From a virus: a stretch of 29,296 bases of DNA. Position 1 is the stretch's first letter; each line of letters opens with the position of its first letter. Of this stretch, positions 4,330 to 12,040 are shown piece after piece. Under the pieces are notes generated by a model. The model did not search any database and was not told the DNA's origin. It worked only from the letters and a program-made list of their open reading frames with translations. The stretch covers positions 1-29,296 of the IMG/VR virus record IMGVR_UViG_3300030406_000128, one strand, 5' to 3'. A program made the position numbers and the translations under genes.

Positions 4330-5421
4330 ATGACAGAAAAACTAAAAGGTAAAAGACTTAGGTTGTCAGCAGAGGAAGTAGAATTAATATACGAGTTTAG
4401 AGGTAAAGACCTTGACAATATCAATAGCAACTCAGCTCTTGATTTACATTTATTAGAAAGAGGTATTGATAAAAAAGACGTAGTGTCTGTCAAACACTGG
4501 CAGAACATGAAAGGAGAGCTAAGATTCTCCATTGTTACTAAAGAAGATATAGGTATTGATGATAAAAGTATATTTAACAAAGTAAATGAACTTGTTACTA
4601 CGCATTCACCTAAGTATAAAAAAATAAAAAGAAAGAAAGGTAATCACCTTCTTGTTATAAATCCTGCAGATATACACATCGGTAAATATGCAGATGCTCT
4701 TGAAACTGCTGACCCTTATGACATTGAAACTGCTGTTAGTAGAGTTACAGAAGGCGTAGAAGGTATTATACAGAAGGCACAAGGGTTTGATATAGAAAAG
4801 ATTTTATTTTGCATAGGAAACGATGTATTGCACATTGACAACGTATATAATACAACGACCAAAGGTACAAGACAAGATGTTGATGGTAAGTGGTGGATGC
4901 ATTATGAGGTAGCATTGAGTCTTTATGTAAGTTGTGTAGAGATGTTAAGAATGGTAGCACCAGTTGATTGTGTACATTCTATGAGTAATCACGACTATCA
5001 AAGTGGTTATCATCTGGCTAAATCTCTACAATCTTGGTTCAGAGAAACAGATGATGTTGATGTTGACGCAAATCCAAATCACCGTAAATATTATAAATAT
5101 GGCTCTAATCTTATTGGACTAGAGCATGGTGATGGTGCTAAGATGGATAGACTACCATTACTAATGGCACAAGAAAATCCTATTGAGTGGTCAGAAACAA
5201 AATACAGATATTGGTATTTACATCACTTACATCACAAAGTAAAACATAAATGGTTAGATGCAAAAGATTATATTGGTGTCACTGTAGAGTATCTTAGAAG
5301 TCCATCAGGTTCTGATAGTTGGCATAATAGAAAAGGTTTTGTTGGTGTACCAAAGGCAGTAGAAGGTTTTGTACATGAGAGAGAAACAGGACAGGTAGCA
5401 AGGTTAGTTCATTATTTTTAG
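4330..5421 (+). CDS. Calcineurin-like metallophosphoesterase
   Basis: 363 aa from the ATG at 4330. A TTG at 4312 would add six residues but overlaps the promoter, so it is rejected. The dinuclear metal motifs of the calcineurin/Mre11-SbcD superfamily appear in order: DIH at about residues 114-116, GND at 163-165, SNHD at 219-222, a histidine in EHGDG near 266 and HHLHH at 298-302. The enzyme should hydrolyse phosphodiesters or phosphomonoesters, and in this setting a DNA-processing nuclease role is plausible. The N-terminal 90 residues (LRLSAEEVELIYEFRG) look like a small helical DNA-binding region. It heads the replication/recombination block. Substrate cannot be told from sequence. Confidence 0.85.
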   Translation: MTEKLKGKRLRLSAEEVELIYEFRGKDLDNINSNSALDLHLLERGIDKKDVVSVKHWQNMKGELRFSIVTKEDIGIDDKSIFNKVNELVTTHSPKYKKIKRKKGNHLLVINPADIHIGKYADALETADPYDIETAVSRVTEGVEGIIQKAQGFDIEKILFCIGNDVLHIDNVYNTTTKGTRQDVDGKWWMHYEVALSLYVSCVEMLRMVAPVDCVHSMSNHDYQSGYHLAKSLQSWFRETDDVDVDANPNHRKYYKYGSNLIGLEHGDGAKMDRLPLLMAQENPIEWSETKYRYWYLHHLHHKVKHKWLDAKDYIGVTVEYLRSPSGSDSWHNRKGFVGVPKAVEGFVHERETGQVARLVHYF

Positions 5422-5449: not shown

Positions 5450-5457
5450 TATATTTG
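5450..5457 (+). promoter_or_regulatory. Promoter -7 element before the putative annealing-protein gene
   Basis: TATATTTG followed by CAT matches the TAnnTTTG element exactly. No good TTG lies at the right distance upstream (the region near 5430 reads ATAGTGTAT), so this may be weak or need an activator. It lies in the gap after the phosphoesterase stop codon. Confidence 0.55.
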
Positions 5458-7132: not shown

Positions 7133-7754
7133 ACCATCTTATTATTCTATATTACCTGCTGAGGTAAGGTACGACACAAACCTTACTGCTAATGCTAAAT
7201 TATTATATAGCGAGATTACTGCATTAACAAATGCTACTGGATATTGTTATGCAACAAACGGCTACTTTGCTAGTCTATATGGCAAGTCAAAGGTTACTAT
7301 ATCTAAGTGGATTAGAGAACTTGCAGAAAACAATTATATACAAATAGAATTTACATACAGAGAGGGTACTAAAGAAATAGATAATAGGTATATAACAATT
7401 CTTAAAGGGGGTATTAAAGAAAAGTTAAATACCCTCTTAAAGAAAACTTTAAAGAATAATAATACAAGTAATAATACTACAAGTATAATAAAAGAAAAAA
7501 TATATAAAAAAGAAAAATTTATTAAGCCATCAATAGAGGAAATACAAGCATATTGTATTGAAAGAAAAAATAATATTGACGCAGAAAACTTCTTTGCATT
7601 TTACGAAGCAAGAGGTTGGATGATTGGAAAAAACAAAATGAAGAATTGGAAGATGTGTATGATTACTTGGGAGAAAAACAACAAAACAAATACAAGTATG
7701 TCAAAGATTGACATTCAACTTAATGAATATAACAAAGGCAAACAATTATTATGA
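7116..7754 (+). CDS. Replication initiator / replisome organiser (winged helix + C-terminal domain)
   Basis: A 212-aa protein with three parts. Residues about 7-92 are a winged helix-turn-helix of the phage replication-initiator type (LTANAKLLYSEITALTNATG, then GYFASLYGKSKVTISKWIREL, then the wing). Residues about 95-135 are a low-complexity Lys/Asn/Thr linker. Residues about 137-188 form the helical C-terminal domain ending in MKNWKMCMITWEK, as in DnaD-like and lambda O-like organisers. It would bind the origin and recruit helicase. The linker is encoded by an AT-rich, repeat-containing stretch that may itself be the origin (see 7401-7490). It overlaps the genes on both sides. Confidence 0.75.
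   Translation: MTFHSKPSYYSILPAEVRYDTNLTANAKLLYSEITALTNATGYCYATNGYFASLYGKSKVTISKWIRELAENNYIQIEFTYREGTKEIDNRYITILKGGIKEKLNTLLKKTLKNNNTSNNTTSIIKEKIYKKEKFIKPSIEEIQAYCIERKNNIDAENFFAFYEARGWMIGKNKMKNWKMCMITWEKNNKTNTSMSKIDIQLNEYNKGKQLL
7401..7490. repeat. Candidate replication origin inside the initiator gene
   Basis: An inverted repeat (7401-7415 with 7428-7442, 15-bp arms with one mismatch and one wobble, 12-base loop) is followed at once by very AT-rich DNA. That DNA carries two copies each of ATAATAC (7459-7465, 7471-7477) and TACAAGTA (7463-7470, 7478-7485). It lies between the two domains of the initiator, the position of the origin in lambda O and many other phage initiators. No experimental support; coding constraint on Lys/Asn codons could create part of the pattern. 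Confidence 0.4.
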
Positions 7755-8289: not shown

Positions 8290-8509
8290 TTACTATATAG
8301 GTAAATATCATAAGTATGAAGCAAGAAAAGTCATAGAAGATTTTGACTTGTCATATAATTTAGGCACAGCAACAAGTTACATACTACGTTGCTCTAGGAA
8401 GCATGATAGTCCAGTAGATTGTATTAGAAAAGCCATTGCACACTTAGAATTTGAATTAGATAAATTAGAATTTACACATGAGCAAGATTGGAAAAATAAA
8501 AACATCTGA
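8270..8509 (+). CDS. DUF3310 family protein
   Basis: A 79-aa protein with the DUF3310 signature: PDYYIGKYHKYEARKVIEDF, then LGTATSYILRCSRK, then KAIAHLEFELDKL. The family is widespread in phages, usually near nucleotide-metabolism or replication genes; its biochemical role is not settled. The ATG at 8270 was preferred over an in-frame GTG at 8246 because the family begins close to the YY motif. Confidence 0.8.
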   Translation: MTKKIPDYYIGKYHKYEARKVIEDFDLSYNLGTATSYILRCSRKHDSPVDCIRKAIAHLEFELDKLEFTHEQDWKNKNI

Positions 8510-8690
8510 GAGAAAAGACCACAGAGGTGGTGGTTACAGCAGAAGGAAGTTTTCTGACAGTGAAGCTAAACTTATAAGAAAAGAATATGAGGAGGGGGTA
8601 GGGGGGTCTGTTACACAAATGGCAAAGAAATATAAAGTTTCTCAACCACTTATGTATCAGTTACTTAATTATGTAACCTATAATGAATAA
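8478..8690 (+). CDS. Small homeodomain-like HTH protein
   Basis: A 70-aa basic protein. Residues about 25-66 (KFSDSEAKLIRKEYEEG, then SVTQMAKKYKVSQPLMYQLLN) form a resolvase/transposase-type helix-turn-helix like those in phage regulators and small terminases. The N-terminus is Lys/Arg/Gly-rich (DHRGGGYSRR). It overlaps both neighbouring genes. A regulatory or DNA-targeting role is inferred. The codons for EEGVGGS include an unusual G-run, GGAGGGGGTAGGGGGG at 8591-8606. Confidence 0.6.
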   Translation: MSKIGKIKTSERKDHRGGGYSRRKFSDSEAKLIRKEYEEGVGGSVTQMAKKYKVSQPLMYQLLNYVTYNE

Positions 8691-9030
8691 AGAAGCTAGA
8701 GTTCAGTCAGCATTTTGTGACTACTTAAAACTAGCTTATCCTAAAGTAAGATACTGTGCAAGTCTTGGTGGTATCAGAACATCAATGAAACAAGCAATAC
8801 TAGCGAAGCGTACTGGTTATGTAAAAGGTTTCCCAGATTTACAAATACTAAAAGTAAATAAAAAATATGCAGGTTGTTTTTTAGAAATTAAAGCAGATAA
8901 AAAATCTTACCCAACTAAAGAACAAAAAGAGTGGGTAGCATTTTTAAATGATGAAGGTTATTTTGCAAAAGTTGTTAAAGGATTGGATGAGTGCATTGAA
9001 ACTGCTGAATGGTATTTGAAACTGCCCTGA
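8683..9030 (+). CDS. VRR-NUC domain nuclease
   Basis: A 115-aa protein matching the stand-alone VRR-NUC fold of the PD-(D/E)XK nuclease superfamily. The early glutamate lies in NKEARVQSAFCDYLK, followed by TGYVKGFPDLQIL (the aspartate) and FLEIKADK (the ExK), then the QKEWVAFLNDEGYFAKVV helix. Members cut DNA structures such as flaps and junctions; in phages they probably resolve branched replication intermediates. Length and motif spacing are normal. The 3' end of the gene runs into the first iteron cluster (9018-9048), whose copies overlap its last codons. Confidence 0.85.
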   Translation: MNKEARVQSAFCDYLKLAYPKVRYCASLGGIRTSMKQAILAKRTGYVKGFPDLQILKVNKKYAGCFLEIKADKKSYPTKEQKEWVAFLNDEGYFAKVVKGLDECIETAEWYLKLP

Positions 9031-9048
9031 AACTGCTGTGAAACTGCT
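9018..9048 (+). repeat. Iteron cluster A: 11-bp tandem repeats of GAAACTGCT
   Basis: Copies of GAAACTGC(T/C) begin at 9018, 9029 and 9040, exactly 11 bases apart; a further GAAACTGCT sits at 8998-9006 within the nuclease gene. A related cluster lies at 11716-11770, and the DNA just after both clusters also matches (20 of 24 bases from 9039 and from 11761). Confidence 0.75.
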
Positions 9049-9059
9049 GGACATTTTCT

Positions 9060-9109
9060 AAGGGTGGAGTACGGAGCTTGATAAATTCTGTAAGTCTCCT
9101 ACCACTCTT
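9060..9109 (+). terminator. Imperfect hairpin after the nuclease gene (terminator or structured leader)
   Basis: AAGGGTGG (9060-9067) pairs with CCACTCTT (9102-9109). An inner helix GGAGCTTG (9073-9080) pairs with TAAG-T-CTCC (9091-9099), giving a long stem with one internal loop and one bulge. A short T-run follows the outer arm. It could end the replication operon. No other gene feature occurs in the 160-base gap apart from the promoter at 9147-9174. Confidence 0.5.
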
Positions 9110-9146
9110 TAAAATTGTTCATAACTTTTTTTATCATTTATATAAG

Positions 9147-9174
9147 TTTGTTTAGTATTTATTTATTATATTTG
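9147..9174 (+). promoter_or_regulatory. Promoter for the accessory early operon
   Basis: TTTG (9147-9150) and TATATTTG (9167-9174) with a 16-base spacer match the Bacteroidota promoter pattern; transcription would begin near 9181, about 16 bases before the ATG at 9197. Confidence 0.65.
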
Positions 9175-9196
9175 CATATAACCTTAAAATAAAATT

Positions 9197-9697
9197 ATGA
9201 AAACAAAAACAATTTTAGAAGTGTATAATGATTATGATTCAAATTTTGCATATGAAGATTATAAAGAAAATATAAATGGTCTTGCAAGTGAATTGGATAT
9301 AATTATATTTAACAAAAACGATGAAAAGTTCGACAATATTATTTCTGATAGGCAAAAAACAAAATATTGTACAAATCATAAAGATAGTTATAAGAATAGT
9401 ATAACTATTGATTGCGTTGGATATTCTCAAAGTGATTGGGATACATATACGATATATTATAATGACATGACAAATGACTTAAAATACCTTTGTAAAGAAT
9501 TAAAAAGGTTATTTACTCATAAAAATGATTATTTAATAAAAGAAATAGAATTGTTAGATTCCGGTCATTCAAAAGTAATTAACACTCATTCTATAATGAT
9601 TAATTATATAGAGTTTCCTACTAACAAAGATATTGCAGAAACAATAAAACATTATGGTATAGGTGATTTTGACGAAATAATATTTAATAATAACTAA
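9197..9697 (+). CDS. Unknown protein, first gene of accessory early operon
   Basis: A 166-aa acidic, Asn/Asp/Tyr-rich soluble protein (MKTKTILEVYNDYDSNF...). No family recognised, no membrane segment. It sits directly behind a promoter and the A-rich leader CTTAAAATAAAATT. Codon use is more AT-rich than in the structural genes, as in the next five genes. First-transcribed phage genes of this kind often act on the host, but nothing in the sequence proves it. Confidence 0.7.
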   Translation: MKTKTILEVYNDYDSNFAYEDYKENINGLASELDIIIFNKNDEKFDNIISDRQKTKYCTNHKDSYKNSITIDCVGYSQSDWDTYTIYYNDMTNDLKYLCKELKRLFTHKNDYLIKEIELLDSGHSKVINTHSIMINYIEFPTNKDIAETIKHYGIGDFDEIIFNNN

Positions 9698-9711
9698 AAA
9701 CAAATAAAATT

Positions 9712-9918
9712 ATGGAAATAAAAGATTATGTTTTATACGATAGAGCAAACAATAGTTTGGTAAAGTTTGATAGTGGGGATATAGTATTATATGGAAACAA
9801 AGATGAAGCAATAGAAGATTGTTATGGTAACGAAGAGGTAATACAATTTGAAAATTTACCAAACGACAAACAAAAAGAAATTATTAAACAATTAAAATTA
9901 AAACAAAATGATAAATAA
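9712..9918 (+). CDS. Small acidic protein, unknown
   Basis: A 68-aa protein (MEIKDYVLYDRANNS...) with beta-rich N-terminal half and a Lys/Gln-rich helical end. It is preceded by AAAACAAATAAAATT and overlaps the next gene by 11 bases. No family recognised. Confidence 0.6.
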   Translation: MEIKDYVLYDRANNSLVKFDSGDIVLYGNKDEAIEDCYGNEEVIQFENLPNDKQKEIIKQLKLKQNDK

Positions 9919-10153
9919 TGAACATTTAAAAAAGTGTAAACAAATAATTAATGATTCACATAAAAAAGCAAATCCTGTCTATATAGCAAATGATATAGAA
10001 ACTAAAATAAATACATATGTAGATTGGTTTTTTGATGAATGTGGAGACCCTAAAGATGAGTTAAGATATTTAATGCAATTAATATTAGATAGTGAAGGTA
10101 AAGCAAAAGAGGATTTACTAGACGTTTTATCTTATCATACAATGATTTACTAA
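9908..10153 (+). CDS. Small helical protein, unknown
   Basis: An 81-aa, mainly helical, acidic protein (MINNEHLKKCKQIIND, then WFFDECGDPKDELRYLMQLILD). The gene begins inside the end of its predecessor and is followed two bases later by the next, so the three are probably co-translated. No family recognised. Confidence 0.6.
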   Translation: MINNEHLKKCKQIINDSHKKANPVYIANDIETKINTYVDWFFDECGDPKDELRYLMQLILDSEGKAKEDLLDVLSYHTMIY

Positions 10154-10154
10154 T

Positions 10155-10382
10155 ATGGACTATGATAACTATAAACTATCTTTAGAAGATAACGAACCAT
10201 ATGTTAGTCAATGTTGTGGTTGCGAAGTGTATGAAGTGTATGATTCTAAGTATGAAGAATATAAAACAATATGTGATGAATGTAATTCATATTGCGATAT
10301 ATTATTAGAATATGAATATGAATCATTTAAGGTAGAACAAATAGCTGATGAAATGTATGAAGAAAATAAACTTAATAACTAA
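10155..10382 (+). CDS. Acidic zinc-ribbon-like small protein
   Basis: A 75-aa protein with a cysteine pattern CCGC (residues about 20-23), then CDEC and a further Cys about 18-25 residues later, typical of a small treble-clef or ribbon zinc site. It is strongly acidic (about 21 Asp/Glu against five Lys) and rich in Tyr (SKYEEYK, LLEYEYESF). The charge makes DNA mimicry or binding to a basic host protein conceivable. The family is not named here. Confidence 0.6.
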   Translation: MDYDNYKLSLEDNEPYVSQCCGCEVYEVYDSKYEEYKTICDECNSYCDILLEYEYESFKVEQIADEMYEENKLNN

Positions 10383-10394
10383 AAACAAAAACAA

Positions 10395-10589
10395 ATGAAA
10401 AAATTAAATGCACAAGAATTACTAGAATATTTAATGGATTTATCTTTAGATTTTGATTTATCAAATGTTCAAGTAAATTATAGATTTTCTGATGATTCAG
10501 ATGTTTATGAAATATCAAAGGTCGAGGATGATTTATATGATGAAATGACAAATAATAAATTACAAAGTATAATATTAAAAACTAAATAA
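10395..10589 (+). CDS. Small acidic protein, unknown
   Basis: A 64-aa protein (MKKLNAQELLEYLMDLSLD...) with a helical N-terminus and a beta-like acidic middle (VNYRFSDDSDVYEISKVEDD). It follows the leader CTAAAAACAAAAACAA, the clearest copy of the A-rich start signal in this operon. No family recognised. Confidence 0.6.
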   Translation: MKKLNAQELLEYLMDLSLDFDLSNVQVNYRFSDDSDVYEISKVEDDLYDEMTNNKLQSIILKTK

Positions 10590-10595
10590 AAACAA

Positions 10596-11192
10596 ATGGA
10601 AACAAAAACAAATAACAATTTTGATAGCAGACTTAGAGATTTAATGGGTACTGCTGACTTTGAAAAAGCAATCAAAGATACTGAGTTCGCAATAGATTTT
10701 GGTGGATTTTATGAATCTATCCATACTGAATATATTGATAGACATATTGAAGATTTACTTATATCTTGGGTAGATGTAGATTATAAAAAAACATATGAAA
10801 ATTATGCAAAGTGTTTTGTTGATTATATAAACTTTTCACTTAATCAAAAATTAAAGTATGTTGAATTAGATAGTCCAAAATATTATAATTTCAGAAACGA
10901 TAAAATTATTGTAAGTATAAATGAAATAGATAAATATAATCTAATTCAGCAATATAGAAACGATAATCAGTTTGTTAAGTGGGTCAACGAAGCTAGTGCT
11001 AGTCGAGATGGATTTACATCTTTTTGTAGTGGTATCGATAACTTAATTAATGAGCAGGAGTTATTATTAGAATATATATTTACATATATATTGTGGCATG
11101 AAGAAGAAAATGAATTTATTTTAGAGTCAGTAGGTTTACATGATTTTATGATGGATGACTTTGAAGTAGTAATGTTAGAAGGAAGGTTATGA
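10596..11192 (+). CDS. Acidic 198-aa protein, unknown (DFGGFYES motif)
   Basis: A soluble, strongly acidic protein (roughly 45 Asp/Glu to 22 Lys/Arg). The N-terminal third contains FAIDFGGFYESIHTEYIDRHIEDLL, divided as FGGFYESIH and YIDRHIED. Similar FGGFYxSxH stretches occur in unnamed phage and mobile-element proteins, but I do not know a function for them. The C-terminus (LHDFMMDDFEVVMLEG) is acidic. The composition fits DNA-mimic inhibitors but does not prove one. Its stop overlaps the ATG of a tiny downstream ORF. Confidence 0.65.
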   Translation: METKTNNNFDSRLRDLMGTADFEKAIKDTEFAIDFGGFYESIHTEYIDRHIEDLLISWVDVDYKKTYENYAKCFVDYINFSLNQKLKYVELDSPKYYNFRNDKIIVSINEIDKYNLIQQYRNDNQFVKWVNEASASRDGFTSFCSGIDNLINEQELLLEYIFTYILWHEEENEFILESVGLHDFMMDDFEVVMLEGRL

Positions 11193-11287
11193 GTAGAGGA
11201 GGTAATTTACCCATGTCTAACTTTAGTAATACTTACTTGACAATACTATTAATTATAGCTATTTGTTTTAGTGGGTGTTTACAATAA
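11189..11287 (+). CDS. Possible 32-aa lipopeptide / membrane micropeptide
   Basis: A tiny ORF starting in the stop codon of the previous gene (ATGA overlap). It reads MSRGGNLPMSNFSNTYLT then ILLIIAICFSGCLQ. The hydrophobic run ending FSGC resembles a signal peptide with a lipobox, leaving a mature peptide of only three residues (CLQ). An inner ATG at 11213 gives 24 aa. It may be a small membrane-acting or exclusion peptide, or chance. Confidence 0.35.
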   Translation: MSRGGNLPMSNFSNTYLTILLIIAICFSGCLQ

Positions 11288-11292
11288 TTACA

Positions 11293-11327
11293 GGGACATA
11301 GGGGGGTATAGGGGGGTGCTAGGGGGG
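11293..11327 (+). repeat. G-quadruplex-forming array (four G-tracts)
   Basis: Tracts GGG (11293-11295), then three GGGGGG blocks (11301-11306, 11311-11316, 11322-11327) separated by loops of 5, 4 and 5 bases. Three repeats of TAGGGGGGT are visible. The same nonamer occurs at 8599-8607. It lies in the 84-base gap between the tiny ORF and the SH3-like gene in DNA that is otherwise about 70% AT. Confidence 0.7.
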
Positions 11328-11371
11328 TAGGTATAAATAATAATTATAGTAACTTAAAACGAATAAAAACA

Positions 11372-11653
11372 ATGAAAACAATAAAGATTAGCACAGATGA
11401 GGCAAAGGAGTTAATACATGATTATAGAAATCAAATATTCACCTGTAAGTTTGTCAAAAAAGATGGTACACATCGGATAATGAATGCAAGACTAGGAGTA
11501 AAGAAAGGAGTTAAGGGAGTGGGGTTAAAATATAATCCAGATGATTATAATCATATAATTGCATATGATTTAAAAAATGATGGATTTAGGACAATAAATA
11601 TAAATACTTTGTTATATTTGCGAACTAACAGAAAGAAGTACACAATCGTGTAG
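11372..11653 (+). CDS. SH3 beta-barrel-fold phage protein
   Basis: A 93-aa protein of a widespread phage/plasmid type (MKTIKISTDEAKELI, then FTCKFVKKDGTHRIMNARLGVKKGVKGVGLKY, then FRTININTLLYLRTNRKKY). Homologues are commonly annotated as SH3 beta-barrel fold-containing proteins of unknown role. Leader AACGAATAAAAACA precedes the ATG. A strong terminator closes the unit 27 bases downstream. Confidence 0.75.
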   Translation: MKTIKISTDEAKELIHDYRNQIFTCKFVKKDGTHRIMNARLGVKKGVKGVGLKYNPDDYNHIIAYDLKNDGFRTININTLLYLRTNRKKYTIV

Positions 11654-11679
11654 TTCAATTATTTTTCATAATAGGTTTT

Positions 11680-11712
11680 AAAAAGTGTAGATTTTTTTCT
11701 ACACTTTTTTTT
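11680..11712 (+). terminator. Strong rho-independent terminator
   Basis: A perfect 12-bp stem AAAAAGTGTAGA (11680-11691) with TCTACACTTTTT (11698-11709) and a T6 loop, followed by more T. A-tract and T-tract on both sides mean it could work in both directions. Confidence 0.9.
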
Positions 11713-11715
11713 ATT

Positions 11716-11770
11716 GTAACTGCTTTACGAAACTGCTCCGAAACTGCTCCGAAACTGCTATGAAATTGCT
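11716..11770 (+). repeat. Iteron cluster B: GAAACTGCT tandem repeats
   Basis: GTAACTGCT at 11716, then GAAACTGCT at 11729, 11740 and 11751, and GAAATTGCT at 11762; the last four are exactly 11 bases apart. This is the larger partner of the cluster at 9018-9048. It lies between a terminator and three hairpins in a region without a confident gene. Confidence 0.8.
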
Positions 11771-11778
11771 GGAGATTT

Positions 11779-11852
11779 GCTTAGTGTATTTTGTACGCTT
11801 AGCTTAGTGTATTTTTTACACTAACTTTTTTCATAGTGTGGTTTATACACTT
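11779..11852. repeat. Three consecutive AGTGTA-type inverted repeats
   Basis: Hairpin 1: GCTTAGTGTA (11779-11788) with TACGCTTAGC (11794-11803), one mismatch and one wobble. Hairpin 2: TTAGTGTA (11804-11811) with TACACTAA (11817-11824), perfect, then C and six T (terminator-like). Hairpin 3: AGTGT (11835-11839) with ACACT (11847-11851). Spacing of about 25-30 bases and a shared sequence suggest operators or stacked terminators. Confidence 0.65.
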
Positions 11853-11868
11853 AGTTTAATTCAACATA

Positions 11869-12009: not shown

Positions 12010-12040
12010 TTTGTCATATTAATTTTTTTATATATCTTTG
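12010..12040 (+). promoter_or_regulatory. Best-matching Bacteroidota promoter of the window
   Basis: TTTG at 12010-12013, a 19-base spacer, and TATCTTTG at 12033-12040 fit the -33/-7 consensus exactly. Start of transcription is expected near 12047, within the palindrome that follows. Confidence 0.75.

Follow-up and report, generated by a model that had tools for sequence, protein, structure and literature searches.

A two-part cassette of G-runs and direct repeats linked to a small helix-turn-helix gene in uncultured, apparently marine, phages

The window analyzed here is the entire 29,296-nucleotide (nt) IMG/VR record IMGVR_UViG_3300030406_000128 (class linear; the genes considered here are all on the + strand). 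It carries two arrays of a short direct repeat, GAAACTGC, and each array is the right half of a two-part cassette, in which a cluster of G-runs is followed, after about 430 bp, by the GAAACTGC copies. This bipartite element is genuine and family-wide, with well over 100 contigs of uncultured, apparently marine phages carrying it; it lies on one strand, has a recurrent spacing, and is tied to a small helix-turn-helix (HTH) protein. It is apparently undescribed: our searches of the literature on the repeat sequence, Bacteroidetes-phage iterons, TubR-like centromeres and G-quadruplex origins returned nothing about it.

Two arrays, each the right half of a cassette

Array 1 (8998-9048, + strand) consists of GAAACTGCT/C copies at 8998, 9018, 9029, and 9040; array 2 (11716-11770, + strand) has five copies, at 11716 (GTAACTGCT), 11729, 11740, 11751, and 11762 (GAAATTGCT). 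The pair pattern GAAACTGCNNNGAAACTGC (at most two mismatches) occurs five times in the window, all on the + strand and confined to these two clusters, with 0 expected from 100 shuffles; lone exact repeat copies also lie inside genes at 4702, 4726, 6521, and 28186. A sequence-only reading of this DNA had described five copies in array 2 and three in array 1, spaced by 11 nt with one step of 13; the spacing and the count for array 2 stand, but in array 1 a further exact copy (8998-9006) brings the number to four. The same reading placed both clusters outside coding context, which is incorrect for array 1, since its copies at 8998 and 9018 sit within the open reading frame (ORF) of a VRR-NUC nuclease gene (8683-9030, + strand; PF08774, E = 1.4e-6), whose 3′ end overlaps the first repeat copies. 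The likeness it reported between the sequences running on from the last copies (9039-9062 and 11761-11784) is exactly as claimed, at 20 of 24 bases. Across the family the repeat unit has the logo YGAAACTGCY, and a tail past the last copy (9049-9062 for array 1, + strand) is conserved with the consensus RGGNMTNTT, which looks like a degenerate copy of the unit.

The left halves of the cassettes were absent from that first reading. G-run cluster 1 (AGGGGGTAGGGGGGT; 8594-8606, + strand) lies within the coding sequence of the HTH gene, 391 nt from array 1, and cluster 2 (TAGGGGGGTATAGGGGGGTGCTAGGGGGGTA; 11301-11327, + strand) lies 388 nt from array 2. At least three AGGGGGTA-like G-runs are found upstream on the same strand in 142 of 174 arrays, at a median of 415 nt and all within 300-700 nt; at least two such runs, 300-700 nt upstream on the array strand, accompany 165 of the 174, vs. 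3.2% of control positions. Within array-carrying contigs, G clusters are on the array strand in 221 cases and on the opposite strand in 8. The ORF between G-cluster and array is mostly vrr, as in cassette 1 of the window; elsewhere it is wyl, as in cassette 2 (a WYL_2 gene with an Sm-like SH3 barrel, 11372-11653, + strand; PF10902, E = 3.4e-9), hth (loci L129 and L131), or a gene for an unrelated small protein (L349 and L355). In single-array relatives (e.g. L095 and L099), the G-run cluster, at the 3′ end of hth, encodes a C-terminal tail of the HTH protein that is rich in Gly and Arg.

Linkage to a small HTH gene

The gene hth8478 (8478-8690, + strand) encodes a 70-aa protein with a basic, near-invariant arm (RKDxRGGGYxxRKF, from the alignment of its homologues) plus the HTH, modeled by AlphaFold as a three-helix HTH (pLDDT 79.5). 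Among loci retrieved by the HTH protein, not by the repeat, and having enough sequence to be counted, an array lies 310-530 nt downstream of the HTH gene in 70 of 70, and on the other strand in none. A wider set, which includes loci retrieved with diverged HTH queries, has at least three GAAACTGN copies in 157 of 182 loci, most of the remainder having two copies or drifted arrays; with a looser motif, at least three copies are present in 166 of 179 HTH loci. The drifted arrays (GTAACTGCC in 12 loci, GAGACTGCC in L388, and GAAATTGC in L299) follow the HTH subclade, the array itself being kept, mostly with 11-nt spacing. Loci retrieved through WYL_2 give the same association: an array is found in 12 of 13 with an HTH gene, and in none of 26 without one. 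The array also adjoins the HTH gene across re-orderings of the neighborhood (hth-vrr-array, vrr-hth-array, vrr-nuk-hth-array, and hth-wyl-array).

Because of this linkage, the basic arm, and the predicted HTH, we regard the protein as the best candidate for binding the array, which it would recognize. It has no strong match to any known family, and a collection of 50,697 phage records yielded no homologue of it. Matches in the PDB, by sequence or by fold, were no more specific than an HTH in general, those by sequence lying above E 0.1; a Mor/C profile reached a best Pfam E of 0.0055 among family members, the window protein scoring a non-significant 13.8 bits where the cutoff is 24.9.

Matched spacing of the two cassettes in a genome

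Measured between the G-cluster end and the final repeat copy, the two cassettes of the window are 433 and 434 nt long. Similarly matched pairs occur in further genomes with two cassettes (433/436, 434/434, 437/432-435, 448/444, 457/461, 409/414, 492/493, and 492/497), with 448/433, 437/425, and 458/443 as exceptions. Over nine distinct two-cassette genotypes the two lengths are correlated (r = 0.94, and r = 0.85 without the 492 point), with a mean difference of 7 nt vs. 24 in permutations (p = 0.0008, a descriptive and optimistic value, since the genotypes share descent and were picked and typed by hand after the data had been seen). Two pairs, 412/492 (L390) and 498/648 (L129), were set aside as single cassettes split by clustering, and L035 (435/445) was not used in the test. 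In L057 and L074 both cassettes are about 60 nt longer, through AT-rich filler whose sequence differs between the cassettes and between the phages; non-homologous filler of the same length thus contributes to the match. In single-cassette genomes, the lengths before and after the stop codon are negatively correlated (rho = -0.40, uncorrected for relatedness), which is consistent with compensation.

Distribution of the arrays

The exact pattern GAAACTGCTNNGAAACTGCT occurs in 73 IMG/VR stretches, where by our own estimate chance would give only a few, and many of the 73 are contigs with a related terminase. Many arrays per genome would have spoken against a specific role, but arrays are few in the relatives: of 33 long ones, 27 have the motif pair, nearly all of them at just one or two sites and on one strand, and a reversed control pattern does not occur in the 33. 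Family arrays have 3-7 copies, with spacing mostly of 11 nt. Clusters are absent from two isolates, Croceibacter phage P2559Y and Cellulophaga phage phi17:1, and a search for distantly related DNA with the array region found none in the 50,697-record phage collection. A host prophage source was rejected: bacterial and archaeal genomes totaling 257 Gb gave 18 matches, which looked like isolated chance pairs, none having at least three regularly spaced GAAACTGC copies. A different, TTCGAA-based repeat (CGAAACTGCTTCGAAACTGCTTCGAAG) is present in a bacterial metagenome-assembled genome (Bacteroidetes SZUA-528; L166 and L175), and is unrelated to the phage arrays.

Genes and signals around the cassettes

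The gene order in the window is tail, lysis, DNA exonuclease (4312), an ORF at 5455, replisome organizer (7116), HTH (8478), VRR-NUC (8683), accessory ORFs, WYL_2 (11372), small ORFs, and TerS/TerL (14415 and 14776). The ORF at 5455, which has no family match, might at a guess encode a single-strand-annealing protein. The closest isolate by TerL is Croceibacter phage P2559Y (43.5% identity), with Cellulophaga phages at about 37%; thus, a marine bacterium of the Bacteroidota is the probable host. Many terminase-bearing contigs end 0.1-4 kb upstream of terL (as read by eye from a table), and these ends are probably assembly breaks in a variable region, or genome ends.

Between the arrays lie six ORFs for small acidic proteins (9197-11192, + strand), whose content varies among relatives, followed by the WYL_2 gene. 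The sequence-only reading had set this block apart from the rest of the window, which is borne out by its composition (25% G+C over 9197-11653, vs. 32%) and by the isoelectric points (pI) of six of its seven proteins (4.1-5.0), but not by the WYL_2 protein, encoded by the last gene before array 2, which is basic (pI 9.9). Hairpins had been described after both clusters; hairpin-capable DNA does follow each, with a z of -4.0 after array 2 and a weaker -1.7 after array 1 (9060-9109, + strand). Promoter-like sequences of Bacteroidota type are also present after each cluster, as described: read from the sequence, TTTG-N16-TATATTTG (9147-9174, + strand; TTTG at 9147 and TATATTTG at 9167-9174, a spacer of only 16) would serve the accessory operon, and TTTG-N19-TATCTTTG (12010-12040, + strand; TTTG at 12010 and TATCTTTG at 12033-12040) the next one. 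An intrinsic terminator of the wyl operon (11680-11709, + strand) stands directly before array 2.

Three imperfect, operator-like palindromes of the TTAGTGTA-N5-TACACTAA type (11781-11853, + strand), also absent from the first reading, follow array 2. Such TTAGTGT...ACACTAA palindromes are found after arrays in L388 (about seven copies), L355, L358, and L114 as well, and are likely operators of some repressor. Downstream of array 1, a GACAAATTGTC palindrome precedes the next promoter (e.g. in L008 and L074), and single-array groups have a TTTAGAATNATTCTAAA-type palindrome. The 60 nt upstream of many arrays are T-rich and G-poor (T 0.46, G 0.14); in the window, by contrast, array 1 overlaps a gene.

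A probable main origin in the replisome-organizer gene

The organizer gene (7116) has an HTH_36 domain (Pfam) and a PHROG match to replication initiation. Within it, at 7361-7496 (+ strand), we find AGAGGGTACTAAAG (7361), AGGGGGTATTAAAG (7406), and an inverted AATACCCTC (about 7429), followed by a AATAATACAAG-type AT-rich element. The organizer genes of relatives likewise contain RAGGGGGTAYTAAAG repeats and then AATAATACAAG-type AT-rich sequence, and eight Firmicutes/Fusobacterium phages with a related organizer N-terminus have TACCCC/GGGGTA sites and the same AT-rich element in the gene. Since these repeats and the AT-rich element are common to such phages, the main origin probably lies at 7361-7496. 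The combination of iteron core and AT-rich element is shared by Lactobacillus, Staphylococcus, Enterococcus, Fusobacterium, and other phages.

The arrays have the tandem direct repeats, the single orientation, and the proximity to replication genes that would be expected of a main origin. We nevertheless rejected them as iterons of the main initiator on sequence comparison, because the organizer-gene sites center on GGGGTA/TACCCC and not on GAAACTG. It is the G-clusters that have a core, AGGGGGTA, in common with the organizer-gene sites.

Interpretation of the cassettes

We tentatively favor the explanation that the arrays are DNA iterons of the HTH protein, forming with the AGGGGGTA G-runs a cassette on which a secondary-origin-like or pairing site is assembled. 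The HTH protein (8478-8690) would bind the GAAACTGC array; the G-runs might be binding sites of the replisome organizer O, or else adopt a G-rich DNA fold or form an R-loop; and the assembled complex would act where the replication operon and the accessory operon end, in a role comparable to that of SPP1 oriR, and may also affect promoters downstream. Several observations weigh against this explanation. The spacing of the copies (9, 11, 12, 17, 18 nt, and larger values) is loose compared with that of tightly phased iterons; in the window, no AT-rich unwinding element is obvious at array 1; GC skew, which is uninformative here, does not switch at the arrays; glycine codons could partly account for the G-runs within the hth coding sequence; and the linkage of HTH gene and array could be inherited synteny instead of recognition. 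Of the functions proposed in the sequence-only reading, a control cassette and protein-binding iterons fit our results, whereas iterons of the main initiator are unlikely, given the GGGGTA sites in the organizer gene, and a movable island does not fit.

The main rival, which we consider possible but rather doubtful, is that the cassette serves transcription only, the array activating or silencing the next promoter from upstream and the HTH protein being an early-to-late regulator. A TTTG/TANNTTTG promoter does lie 91-122 nt past the array in many loci (145-156 nt in the 18-nt group), with operator-like palindromes between array and promoter, and the HTH profile is weakly similar to the Mor/C late activators; but the array-promoter distance extends elsewhere to about 400 nt, and neither the G-cluster some 430 bp upstream nor the matched spacings within genomes would be explained. 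It is unlikely that the element acts as RNA, a protein binding the transcribed GAAACUGC repeats so as to bring about antitermination or termination, or to protect the 3′ end of the upstream operon. The arrays are strictly in sense orientation (0 antisense), which is not diagnostic, since the genes all run in the same direction; the flexible copy spacing, the start of the array 0-80 nt past a stop codon in most loci, and the fact that no intrinsic terminator was recognized in most single-array loci would also suit an RNA. However, array 2 and related arrays stand behind strong intrinsic terminators and would therefore be little transcribed, and the best candidate partner has a DNA-binding (HTH) fold. 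Overall, intrinsic terminators are found before 32 of 166 arrays and after 8 (13 of 633 in the control), the arrays show no RNA structure (their folds are less stable than those of shuffles), and there is no Rfam match above the gathering score. With terminators commoner before the array than after it, array 2 behind one, and no RNA folding, a DNA site is therefore favored.

A movable accessory island or recombination hot spot between the two arrays is very improbable. The block has a lower G+C content and its gene content varies among near relatives, as such an island would; yet none of the relatives compared has the block cleanly missing, single-cassette relatives retain the accessory genes and wyl while lacking array 2, and each array tracks its own G-cluster and the HTH gene. 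We give equally little credence to a role in packaging (a pac/cos site) or in partition (a parC/tubC-like site). Known pac regions include bipartite repeat sites, and the partition centromeres parC of R1 (bound by ParR) and tubC of pBtoxis (bound by TubR) have repeats of 11-12 bp, much like the 11-bp direct repeats here. However, the terminase genes are about 3 kb or more away, and contig ends are not piled at the array: the edge-to-array distances are spread over 52-2515 nt without clustering, so that a fixed genome terminus or cos site at the array was rejected. No match to a partition ATPase/GTPase, including ParM, TubZ, and ParA, was found among those of the neighboring ORFs that were tested.

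A more specific form of pairing, for which we see only a small chance, is a DNA synapsis element, in which two cassettes would align side by side, G-cluster to G-cluster and array to array, bridged by the HTH protein with its RGGGY arm; the partners would be the two cassettes of one genome or those of sister genomes. Such pairing would account for the equal G-to-array lengths within a genome despite unrelated contents, and for the free drift of single-cassette genomes, which would pair with identical copies.

Relation to known systems

A close parallel to the proposed secondary-origin-like site is Bacillus phage SPP1. It has oriL within gene 38 and oriR in an intergenic segment that bears a moron; direct repeats and a DNA unwinding element are present at each (PMC6316719), and the repeats of the two are bound by one protein, the initiator gp38 (PMC6316719). 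The window similarly has one origin, probably, within the initiator gene and a second repeat site in an intergenic accessory (moron) segment, with direct repeats, AT-rich DNA, and genes for an organizer-type replication protein, a possible recombinase, and a nuclease close by. Unlike in SPP1, the intergenic site consists of two unlike halves about 430 bp apart with an ORF between them, and only the G-runs, not GAAACTGC, are common to the O-gene sites. With lambda-type O iterons and plasmid iteron origins the arrays share short direct repeats in the same orientation beside replication genes, but they lie outside the initiator gene, are loosely spaced, and have a different proposed binder, the 70-aa HTH protein.

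Partition centromeres such as R1 parC and pBtoxis tubC are also arrays of direct repeats of about 11 bp, with a small protein encoded nearby as the binder (here a proposed one); the phage arrays differ in their variable spacing, their G-run partner, and the lack of a motor ATPase/GTPase among the neighboring ORFs tested. The weak HTH profile similarity to the Mor/C activators of Mu (best Pfam E 0.0055) comes without a significant match for the HTH protein, and Mor/C, which are larger, have their binding site in the promoter itself.

We found no published work on the replication or regulation of this uncultured phage group. For this large and apparently marine group, our analysis locates a likely origin, with GGGGTA iterons and a AATAATACAAG element in a layout common to Firmicutes phages, and provides a cis element defined by its sequence, a candidate for the protein that recognizes it, and a constraint that can be quantified: the spacing matched within genomes, which is hard to account for by ordinary operators.

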